Assembly: GCA_023384105.1 (NCBI GenBank)
Contig: JAHDXR010000021.1
Span: forward strand, 1 to 46,659
From: Hyphomonadaceae bacterium
GTDB lineage: Bacteria; Pseudomonadota; Alphaproteobacteria; Caulobacterales; Aquidulcibacteraceae
Direction: 5' to 3'
Length of the DNA stretch: 46,659 nt
Shown here: in pieces, positions 17,527 through 19,235 of the stretch
How the letters are laid out: each line of letters begins with the position of its first letter
How positions within the stretch are numbered: position 1 is the stretch's first letter
The notes under the pieces: generated by a model
Seen by the model: only the letters and a program-made list of their open reading frames with translations
Database searches by the model: none
What the model was told of the DNA's origin: nothing
Position numbers and translations under genes: made by a program

Positions 17527-17721
17527 CTAGGCCCGTCTCGCCGCGTTCTTTTCGCGCGCGATGCGTTTGAACGCCGGCACGGCGCGGCCCCACCAGATTT
17601 CGAGCCTGGCGCCGCAATCGTCGCAGTCGAAGCAGCCGATGTCCTTGATCGGCAGCTGGACTTGGCGGCGTTCATAGCGCGCGCCGCACGCACAATCGAC
17701 GATCGTGTGCTGCTTGCTCAT
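17527..17721 (-). CDS. Small cysteine-rich (zinc-ribbon-like) protein
   Basis: This 64-residue protein starts MSKQHTIVDCACGARYE and contains CxC, then CFDCDDCGA, followed by a basic C-terminus (AFKRIAREKNAARRA). The spacing CACG...CxxCxxCG suggests a compact zinc ribbon, possibly for nucleic acid or protein binding. I chose the ATG at 17721; the open frame continues upstream to 17958, but that part overlaps the lysozyme start region and has no protein-like features. It ends between mgtE and the lysozyme gene on the opposite strand. I do not recognise the family. Similar small proteins are common as uncharacterised ORFs in Caulobacterales. Confidence 0.65.
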   Translation of the reverse strand: MSKQHTIVDCACGARYERRQVQLPIKDIGCFDCDDCGARLEIWWGRAVPAFKRIAREKNAARRA

Positions 17722-17926
17722 GGCGTCAACTTCGGCTGGTTCCCGGTTCCCTTCATACGGCCCGGCGCCCGGCGCGAACAGCGCGGCCGGCGGCCAAAAG
17801 AGGGCTAACGCAAATTCACCTTCGGCGCGCGTCTTTGGCGCCGCACTTGCCTCTCCGGCGAAGTCCGCCGCGCCGCAGCCCCGAAATGGCGCCGCCGGAC
17901 GTGAAATACGCCGAAAGACAGTGAAA

Positions 17927-18949
17927 ATGACGTACGCAGTCTCCGCCGCCGGTCTCACTCTGATCCAGGAGCACGAAGGCTTCCGCGCCGCGCCGGCGCA
18001 GACGCCGGACGGTGGCTGGGTGGTGGGCTACGGCCATGCGCGCCTCAGCGCGCCCGGCGAACCGGTAAGCCGGGACGAGGCGGCCGAATTGCTGGCGAAG
18101 GACGTCGACCCGGTCGCGCGCGTGGTGAACGCGCTCGTAACCGCGCCGCTCACGCAATCGCAGTTCGACGCGCTGGTGTCGTTCGCATTCTCGATCGGCC
18201 TCGACGCATTCGCCGACAGTCAGGTGCTGCGCCGTCTGAACAGCGGCGACCTGGTCGCCGCCGCGTGCGCGCTCGATGCGTGGCGCAAGGCGAAGATCGA
18301 CGAGGAGGTGGAAGTGTCGGACGCCCTGGTGCGCCGGCGCGCCGCCGAAAAGGCGATGCTGCTGAAGGATGCGCCGTTCGAGGTTGCGCCGTCGGCGATG
18401 CTGCGGCCGCGGCTCGATCACGCCGCCTCGATCCTGGGCGCGCCGGTGCGCGCGGTCGTCGCTGCGGCCAATACGCAGCCGTCTGCACAAATTGTGAGCT
18501 TTTCCTCCGCGACAGCGGTCATGACGCAGCCCCAGCCGGATGCGCCGGCGCCGGATTTCGTACCGGCGGTGTGCATCGCCGACGTCATGAAGGCCGAACC
18601 GCAGGACGACGTGCTGCTGCTGACGCAAGTCGCCAACGATTGCGATGACGCCGAGGCCGAGCCCGTCGTTCCCGCGCGCGAAGCGCAAGCCGCCGAGAAG
18701 AGCCGCTTCCGCCGGCTGAAGCGCGGCGCGATCTCGGGCCTCAAGCGCGCGCTCGAACATTGCGGTCTCGCCGCGCTCATGATCCTCGGCCTGGCGCTGA
18801 TCGCGCTCGGCGCCTCGCTCATGTTCAGCGGCGAGGGCGCCGGCGTCGAGATCGCCGCGGCGGCCGCTGTGGCGACGCCCGGCCTCGCCGCGACCTTGAT
18901 GGCCGCCTACGGCTTCTGGCGCACGCCGCGCGCGAGCGCCGCCGCCTGA
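17927..18949 (+). CDS. GH24 (phage-type) lysozyme with C-terminal membrane anchor
   Basis: This 340-residue protein has a glycoside hydrolase family 24 domain in its first 150 residues: LIQEHEGFRAAP supplies the catalytic Glu, VVGYGHA follows, and SQFDALVSFAFSIGLDAF is the second GH24 signature. It should cleave peptidoglycan between MurNAc and GlcNAc. A low-complexity linker follows, then a basic patch (RFRRLKRGAISGLKRA) and two hydrophobic segments (ALMILGLALIALGASLMF; AATPGLAATLMAAYGF type). The catalytic domain precedes the membrane anchor and no N-terminal signal is visible, unlike a SAR endolysin. The start is ATG 17927 or GTG 17921. No phage structural or holin genes are nearby, so this looks domesticated. 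It is followed by a terminator. Confidence 0.85.
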   Translation: MTYAVSAAGLTLIQEHEGFRAAPAQTPDGGWVVGYGHARLSAPGEPVSRDEAAELLAKDVDPVARVVNALVTAPLTQSQFDALVSFAFSIGLDAFADSQVLRRLNSGDLVAAACALDAWRKAKIDEEVEVSDALVRRRAAEKAMLLKDAPFEVAPSAMLRPRLDHAASILGAPVRAVVAAANTQPSAQIVSFSSATAVMTQPQPDAPAPDFVPAVCIADVMKAEPQDDVLLLTQVANDCDDAEAEPVVPAREAQAAEKSRFRRLKRGAISGLKRALEHCGLAALMILGLALIALGASLMFSGEGAGVEIAAAAAVATPGLAATLMAAYGFWRTPRASAAA

Positions 18950-18979
18950 ACGAATCCTTTTACGCTGGTGAACCTCGGC

Positions 18980-19010
18980 AGAGGGCGGGAGCGATCCCGC
19001 CCTCTTTTTT
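18980..19010 (+). terminator. Rho-independent terminator after the lysozyme gene
   Basis: AGAGGGCGGGA and TCCCGCCCTCT form a perfect 11-bp stem around GCGA, followed by five more Ts. It lies 31 bases after the lysozyme stop. Confidence 0.92.
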
Positions 19011-19026
19011 CTTCGCCCAAACAGCC

Positions 19027-19060
19027 GAAGGGCCGCGCCGGTCGCCCGGTGCGGCCCTTC
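19027..19060 (-). terminator. Hairpin ending the mini-ORF transcript
   Basis: GAAGGGCCGC at 19027-19036 pairs with GCGGCCCTTC at 19051-19060, and an inner CCGG/CCGG pair closes the loop. Read on the minus strand it lies 28 bases after the mini-ORF stop and is followed by GGCTGTTTGGG, which has only a weak T-run. It is a probable 3' end for that RNA, possibly assisted by the next hairpin. Confidence 0.55.
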
Positions 19061-19151
19061 CATTGTCAGTCCCCAGCGGGGCGATCGTTCAGGCGCTCGT
19101 CGCCGGCGAGGTGGTCCAAGCCTGCGACAATGCCCCTAACGAGTGACAATG
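19061..19151. repeat. Inverted CATTGTCA/TGACAATG pair across the mini-ORF
   Basis: CATTGTCA at 19061-19068 and TGACAATG at 19144-19151 are perfect 8-bp inverted repeats. One lies just downstream of the mini-ORF and the other over its codons 3-5. A third partial copy (GACAATG) is at 19126-19132. They allow alternative foldings of the RNA. Confidence 0.55.
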
Positions 19152-19157
19152 AGACAT
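19089..19157 (-). CDS. 22-codon ORF behind a full 16S-tail-complementary ribosome-binding site
   Basis: The minus strand reads ATG at 19157 through TGA at 19089. The peptide begins MSHCHSLGALSQAW and ends in a Ser/Thr/Ala-rich tail. Directly before the ATG lies AGAAAGGAGGTGATCC (complement of 19158-19173), the exact complement of the usual alphaproteobacterial 16S rRNA 3' tail. The ORF uses codons unusual for this genome (TTA, TCT, CAT, GCA). It also contains TGGACCACCTC (complement of 19108-19118), which copies the 16S tail with one mismatch and can pair with its own ribosome-binding site. It has its own promoter-like boxes and a terminal hairpin. I do not recognise the peptide. It may be a leader, a small protein, or a by-product of a regulatory RNA. 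Confidence 0.55.
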   Translation of the reverse strand: MSHCHSLGALSQAWTTSPATSA

Positions 19158-19173
19158 GGATCACCTCCTTTCT
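19158..19173 (-). promoter_or_regulatory. Extended Shine-Dalgarno, complementary to the 16S tail
   Basis: The minus strand AGAAAGGAGGTGATCC sits immediately before the ATG at 19157. Its AGGAGG core is seven bases from the start codon. Typical genes in this window match only four to seven bases of this sequence. Confidence 0.75.
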
Positions 19174-19207
19174 TAAAAGCACGCCGGCGAAAGCCGCCGG
19201 AGCGCCC

Positions 19208-19235
19208 AAGATAGGGCGCCTTCGCGGCCCTGCAA
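19208..19235 (-). promoter_or_regulatory. Candidate promoter of the mini-ORF
   Basis: On the minus strand TTGCAG (complement of 19230-19235) and TATCTT (complement of 19208-19213) are separated by 16 bases. A start a few bases downstream would give a leader of about 40-45 bases that includes a CCGGCG/CGCCGG hairpin before the ribosome-binding site. Confidence 0.5.

Follow-up and report, generated by a model that had tools for sequence, protein, structure and literature searches.

A CC2171-related RNA with an Extended Shine-Dalgarno Site and a Mini-ORF in a Hyphomonadaceae Bacterium

Introduction

The Rfam family RF01867 (CC2171), a Caulobacter sRNA, has a consensus structure that combines a long-range CAUUGUC/GACAAUG helix with a terminal hairpin. 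Rfam classes it as an sRNA gene, and there is no ORF in its retrieved fields. A second group of small transcripts has come from other alphaproteobacteria: Hahn et al. 2017 reportedly described Bradyrhizobium rreB and rreR of the Rhodobacter lineage, small mRNAs with an extended Shine-Dalgarno site that are said to be stand-alone transcripts of about 165 nt ending in a terminator. For rreB, association with the 30S subunit, weak translation and a dependence of RNA stability on the start codon were reportedly found.

Other small RNAs carry the opposite partner of such a site. The retrieved sections of the sources describe small RNAs with anti-Shine-Dalgarno motifs in Caulobacter, the Sis RNAs (alpha-R8/Sis; PMC12559287), and CCUCCUCCC loops in the Sinorhizobium small RNAs SmelA075 and SmelA099 (PMC3927594). 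As far as those sections go, these RNAs resemble the one analysed here in having a 16S-tail-like segment, but they carry the anti-site, whereas our RNA has a full Shine-Dalgarno site and an ORF. Extended Shine-Dalgarno sites are used generally within one species, Staphylococcus aureus, according to the retrieved part of PMC13009471; the likeness lies in a 16S-tail pairing longer than usual and the difference in number, since the genome studied here has one exact site in place of species-wide use.

The window analysed here is the whole stretch of 46,659 nucleotides that makes up positions 1 to 46,659 of contig JAHDXR010000021.1 (assembly GCA_023384105.1, Hyphomonadaceae bacterium). It contains an RNA unit of a kind that is already described, as CC2171 in RF01867 and reportedly as rreB and rreR. 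The new points are an apparent unification of the CC2171 and rre RNAs, covariation of one helix across orders, and a competitor helix conserved in the genus; none of these three was found in the literature examined, a set to which Landt 2008 and Hahn 2017 do not belong.

Results and Discussion

A compact unit on the minus strand

The unit occupies the minus strand at about 19201-19027, and its RNA would start near 19201. An initial annotation made from the letters of the DNA had described a Shine-Dalgarno site directly before an ATG, a 22-codon ORF containing a mimic of the 16S tail, alternative helices, and leader and terminal hairpins; sequence reading located every one of these pieces (Table 1). 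Its promoter-like boxes hold in part: exact copies of the putative −10 box recur in the genus, but a simple scan of the locus found no sigma-70 consensus promoter. The terminal hairpin is likewise in place, but it was not reported by a terminator scan, which listed the leader hairpin as terminator-like instead. Among 18 genus sequences, 97.8% of cells in the leader hairpin are paired, with one pair altered on both sides, and both-sided changes occur in 7 of the 13 pairs of the terminal hairpin.

Table 1. Features of the unit, in window coordinates.
Feature	Position	Strand	Basis or remark
TATCTT, putative −10 box	19208..19213	-	exact in 14/18 genus sequences
5′ leader hairpin CCGGCGGCTTTCGCCGG	19184..19200	-	terminator scan and genus alignment
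Extended Shine-Dalgarno site AGAAAGGAGGTGATCC	19158..19173	-	abuts ATG; complements 16S tail
ATG start codon	19155-19157	-	sequence
Mini-ORF, 22 codons plus stop, peptide MSHCHSLGALSQAWTTSPATSA	19089..19157	-	sequence
P1 5′ strand CATTGTCA, codons 3-5	19144..19151	-	pairing comparison and fold
Third-helix strands TTGTCGC / GCGACGA	19124-19130 / 19097-19103	-	sequence
16S-tail mimic TGGACCACCTC in the ORF (pairing partner GAGGTGATCCA, 19157-19167)	19108..19118	-	10/11 pairs
P1 3′ strand TGACAATG	19061..19068	-	pairing comparison and fold; abuts terminal hairpin on its 5′ side
Terminal hairpin GAAGGGCCGC...GCGGCCCTTC	19027..19060	-	terminator-like in relatives; T tract poor in the window
Match to Rfam RF01867 (CC2171)	19030..19175	-	70.5 bits, E 1.2e-14

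A 17-nt complement of the 16S tail

The 16-mer of the site occurs once in the window at up to 3 mismatches (0.10 occurrences expected), and AAGGAGGTGATCC has one exact copy in its own 3.67 Mb genome, with eight one-mismatch places. A search with an exact 14-mer found no 16S gene in the same assembly or in those of four congeners; 2 of the 10 genomes tried gave one. The 16S tails of two other alphaproteobacteria (L326 and L327) contain TGGATCACCTCCTTTCT, and 17 nt of the window, AGAAAGGAGGTGATCCA, comprising the 16-mer and the A of the ATG, are complementary to them. The initial annotation's view of a uniquely long site is supported, and the length agrees with the 16 nt or more of 16S 3′-end complement before a small ORF that reportedly marks the rre type. 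The site/16S-tail duplex is computed at −29.7 kcal/mol.

Among 181 homologues, 155 carry GAAAGGAGGTGATCC and 20 carry the full 17 nt, all 181 having been selected by a pattern that already requires AAGGAGGTGATCC. In one congener (L023) two bases are deleted from the site (GGAGGTGTCC), and the remainder of the unit is present. An antisense copy of a 16S gene was ruled out, since the minus strand is the one that carries the ORF and the hairpins, and no rRNA appeared when 20 homologous loci were searched against Rfam.

The unit recurs across the alphaproteobacteria

The initial annotation had asked whether the site is found next to an ATG in relatives. Among 60 family genomes, 26 contain AAAGGAGGTGATCCATG; every one of these belongs to the same genus, which is represented by 30 genomes. 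At the level of the order, GGAGGTGATCC followed by TGTCTCATTG was found in 52 of 299 genomes (9 of 54 genera). Class-wide, AAGGAGGTGATCC before RTGTC matched 57 of 385 genomes and 46 of 277 genera, at one place each, and the reversed control gave 0. In the 30 of these 57 matches that were read, the ORF does not exceed 35 codons in 29 and has 56 codons in the remaining one, L091. A sample of the phylum gave matches in 46 of 299 genomes which, counted from the listing, fall in 46 of 86 alphaproteobacteria versus 0 of 213 others. A named scan returned at least 116 stretches; among the 80 matches listed, 77 open ORFs of at most 31 codons (one of which, L156, ends at a contig edge) and L147, L178 and L207 are longer. 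Apart from a few odd records, we assign the listed matches to Rhodobacterales, Sphingomonadales, Rhizobiales, Acetobacteraceae, Inquilinus and Caulobacterales. The labels Acidobacteria (L152) and Woeseiaceae (L205), which occur once each, may reflect misbinning. As judged from sequence comparison, the feature is not due to chance.

Relation to CC2171 and to the rre RNAs

A scan of the window with Rfam at the gathering threshold gave no match; RF01867 was revealed by an E-value search, in which the unit aligns to model positions 1-159 with a score (Table 1) slightly under the curated cut-off of 75. By model alignment the window RNA is a homologue, and by Rfam's rule it is not a CC2171 member. 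It shares with CC2171 the strand, GAAAGGAGGUGAUCC, the CAUUGUC/GACAAUG helix (P1) and the terminal hairpin, so that both parts of the consensus structure are found; it differs from the retrieved fields of the entry in its ORF, and from the RF01867 consensus, which has P1, in a helix between site and mimic.

At E≤0.01 RF01867 matched 45 of 190 class genomes, 7 of them above the cut-off. Two of the 14 controls also gave a match, namely Caulobacter vibrioides and Deinobacterium chartae; only one of these exceeds the cut-off, and we take it to be Caulobacter. A gathering-score search passed 5 of the 20 loci tried. Matches below the cut-off fall on the mini-ORF in 6 of 6 loci from other orders, with E from 3.6e-8 (Devosia) to 0.027 (Bradyrhizobium). 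Matches outside the exact motif are only partly independent, as the RF01867 model itself includes the site: 12 of 15 such matches, and additionally L257, show the site with slight alterations, either within it or at the start codon, such as GGAGGTGGTCC (a wobble change) or TTG starts, and L338, L341 and L342 look like chance matches. One genome (G310) holds two family-like places, C1:2922049 and C1:805104 (L340), the second of which opens MSHCHA..., unlike the other copy.

Like rreB and rreR as reported, the window unit places a long 16S-tail complement before a tiny ORF, and it appears to stand alone; it reportedly differs from them in using ATG and not GTG, in having 22 codons that encode an unrelated peptide, and in the mimic within its ORF, which makes 10 pairs with the site. 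The homologues include ORFs of 14 residues in Bradyrhizobium and 18 residues in Rhodobacterales, which RF01867 matches weakly (L201, E 0.027; L158, E 0.0087; L174, E 0.00014). By these alignments CC2171 and the RNAs of the rre type appear to form a single family.

Helix P1 covaries between orders

P1 pairs codons 3-5, and by eye as far as roughly codon 9 in certain clades, with the stretch immediately 5′ of the terminal hairpin. VSHC and MSHC types have CAUUGUC/GACAAUG as its strands, Sphingomonadales have CAUGGUUCAGC/GCUGACCAUG, and MSS types have GUGAG/CUCAC and AUGAG/CUCAU. A first, loose terminator finder placed the hairpin in 170 of 181 homologues, some wrongly picked; a second gave one in all 181. 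After filtering for the P1 test 177 remained, the window copy with its poor T tract being among the 4 dropped.

Own pairing in the 177 homologues averaged −16.54 kcal/mol versus −11.52 (sd 0.26) when 3′ strands were swapped, and 0 of 500 permutations were as good (best −12.17), in a test that treats related sequences as separate and is not phylogenetic. Swaps confined to the VSH, MSS or mixed groups matched own pairing in 0 of 300 cases each, and swaps inside Rhodobacterales, Sphingomonadales, the genus or g6 left pairing unchanged. The 5′ strands of g6 pair better with 3′ strands of the genus (−18.5) than with their own (−13.3), and own pairing is weak in Bradyrhizobium (−10.9). Within the genus, 7 pairs are invariant and the eighth fails in 11 of 18 sequences. 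By the swap comparison P1 covaries across orders. Conservation, on which the initial annotation had staked its proposal, is seen both in this helix between early codons and terminator and in the class-wide recurrence of the site and start region.

Competing folds around the site

The proposal had been that the mimic can mask the site by pairing over 11 positions with one mismatch, and this complementarity is present in the sequence. In 18 genus sequences, 97.8% of 180 cells of the site/mimic helix are paired, versus 33–59% when the strands are slid; a shuffle control is uninformative in the genus because the site is invariant, which makes two-sided changes impossible. Mimic substitutions in 22 genus sequences kept 17 paired cells, created 6 and broke 5. 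Class-wide, site/mimic pairing reaches p≤0.05 in 43 of 181 homologues (mean z −1.19; window p 0.059), with group z values of −2.45 in Bradyrhizobium (5 sequences), −2.04 in the genus, −0.63 in VSHC types and −0.46 in Sphingomonadales. The helix is kept in the genus, then, but across the class it stands only moderately above shuffles. A third helix, TTGTCGC/GCGACGA, forms 7 of 7 pairs in the window and only 2–6 of 7 in the 17 other genus rows, which rules it out as a conserved part of a switch.

For the predicted transcript the computed folding energy is −93.5 kcal/mol (z −5.03), with 0 of 200 shuffles as good. This thermodynamic fold favours P1 (7.75 expected pairs versus 0.019 for site/mimic), and forcing the site/mimic helix gives −89.3, 4.2 kcal/mol worse; RNAalifold on the genus prefers the site/mimic helix over P1. 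Since the two helices cross, they are mutually exclusive or form a pseudoknot. The site is only partly open in the computed ensemble, and the GGA of its core, with an unpaired probability of 0.05–0.14, sits in a small local hairpin absent from the centroid. Of the switchable RNA that had been proposed there remain a conserved stand-alone RNA, a uniquely long site and crossing helices; the third helix is unconserved, however, and the mimic is modest class-wide.

A retained ORF and its divergent peptide

An ORF of 12–36 codons is present in 181 of 181 homologues kept, compared with 81 and 67 in the other two frames; 7 loci with ORFs of more than 40 codons had been removed beforehand, a filter that favours the first figure. 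Divergence at codon positions 1–3 is 0.297, 0.290 and 0.275 in the 22-codon genus group and 0.192, 0.246 and 0.269, a slight third-position excess, in the 26-codon genus group; in Sphingomonadales the third position diverges less. Peptides are recognisable inside clades and by eye look unrelated between them, and a number of the conserved residues are encoded by RNA segments that pair. The peptide seems, from these comparisons, to be without clear purifying selection as a protein, and RNA pairing may constrain third codon positions too. The initial annotation had left it undecided whether the peptide matters; with codon positions diverging about equally, it seems of little consequence as a protein sequence.

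Mechanism and alternatives

We put at roughly 0.5 the probability that the unit is a stand-alone small mRNA able to capture 30S subunits, with ribosome occupancy governing how it folds and decays. The long site, outside P1 on its 5′ side, would bind a 30S subunit tightly, and P1 would melt for initiation and translation; ribosome occupancy would thereby set both fold and RNA stability. Whenever a bound 30S is absent, the tail-like segment in the ORF could pair with the site, and the peptide would be mainly a by-product of a translated regulatory RNA. The anatomy, the conservation, the covariation of P1 and the retention of site and mimic in the genus are observed; 30S binding is, by analogy, what is said of the relative rreB; fold switching and any output in trans we infer. 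Partial pairing of the site core in the computed fold lowers our confidence, and we also count against this mechanism the near-zero weight of site/mimic pairing in the plain fold, the weakness of the mimic class-wide, the invariance of P1 in the genus, and, from the swap comparison, the unchanged pairing inside four groups, the preference of g6 for genus strands and the weak pairing in Bradyrhizobium.

An sRNA or sponge that acts by base pairing, in which the site captures anti-Shine-Dalgarno sRNAs (alpha-R8/Sis) or the mimic pairs with ribosome-binding sites of mRNAs while the ORF is secondary, is unlikely. Such sRNAs do occur in the class, according to the retrieved sections of PMC12559287 and PMC3927594, and a peptide unconserved as protein would suit it; the closing of the ORF in every homologue kept, with loci of more than 40 codons removed, does not, and a near-invariant site would, we infer, fit the invariant 16S tail more than variable sRNAs. 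An ordinary small mRNA whose strong ribosome-binding site gives high output of a functional micropeptide appears quite improbable. The retrieved part of PMC10117765 gives the 23-residue SEP1 of Sinorhizobium meliloti, possibly the same gene, the top translation efficiency among non-annotated sORFs, and peptides within clades are alike; against this, they look unrelated between clades with no clear third-position excess, and several of their conserved residues translate paired RNA.

Two further readings place the output in trans. In the first, free 30S subunits compete class-wide, through their 16S tail, with the tail copy in the RNA for the near-invariant site, the fold and an output in trans reporting the free-30S pool; this strikes us as rather improbable. 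Still more doubtful is the second, a ribosome sponge dedicated to sensing or buffering free 30S subunits. The 16S tail and its copy within the RNA could compete for one site, and the 17-nt complementarity (tails of L326 and L327) fits this; the mimic, however, is not strong class-wide, and of 37 viral contigs with the motif, not all independent, 25 place it before ORFs of at least 60 residues, 7 before other short ORFs and 5 in family-like copies. By itself a long site does not prove a trap.

If the small mRNA that captures 30S subunits is the right reading, the Caulobacter sRNA and the rre small mRNAs would be one family spanning several alphaproteobacterial orders, with the complement of the 16S tail as its most constant part. 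The effect of a maximal Shine-Dalgarno helix, the retention of an ORF despite peptide drift and a readout of ribosome supply by RNA folding would become testable, and the covarying P1 helix supplies concrete mutants for laboratory work.

Genomic surroundings

The next clear gene is convergent (17705-18949, plus strand) and encodes 414 residues with a Phage_lysozyme domain; relatives of this protein adjoin the unit in 12 of the 141 loci used and also in L018. A mechanically called minus-strand ORF (17816-19063) is antisense to this gene, has no Pfam match, and varies in its start among the 8 loci of its cluster. A leader peptide or attenuator of a downstream gene was ruled out for the window by the convergent neighbour and by the lack of a Pfam match and the unstable starts of the antisense ORF. 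The largest neighbour cluster covers 19 of 141 loci.

Of the 141 loci used, 19 have an ORF of an RF-1-domain (ArfB-like) cluster close to the unit. This ORF is downstream and on the same strand in 14 loci (L138, L166 and L174 at more than 800 nt) and upstream on the other strand in 5; Pfam confirmed the domain in 4 of 4 tested. Hairpins with T tracts separate the unit from the RF-1 ORF, by eye, in the loci displayed. In L145, L153 and L158, of Rhodobacterales type, an RF-1-domain gene lies about 180–200 nt past the site, and in L150 (Hyphomonas) and the similar L102 an ORF of the cluster precedes the unit by about 1 kb on the opposite strand.

In two congeners the unit is interrupted at the same point, in draft assemblies where misassembly is possible: in G002 (L052, L018) the 5′ and 3′ halves of the unit are on separate contigs, with the break just after ATGTCTCAT(TGTCA) and TGTCTCAT in common, as after insertion, and in G006 (L016) ATGTCTCAT(TGTCA) is followed by unrelated DNA with an exact GGATCACCTCC. 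Three matches from the viral collection lie near recombination genes, and the mini-mRNA gene may serve as an integration site. L302 has a large serine recombinase 144 nt off and, by eye, a phage RNA-polymerase-like ORF on the contig; a tyrosine integrase lies 339 nt from L295, and an integrase-like ORF, under its Pfam cut-off, lies 197 nt from L285.
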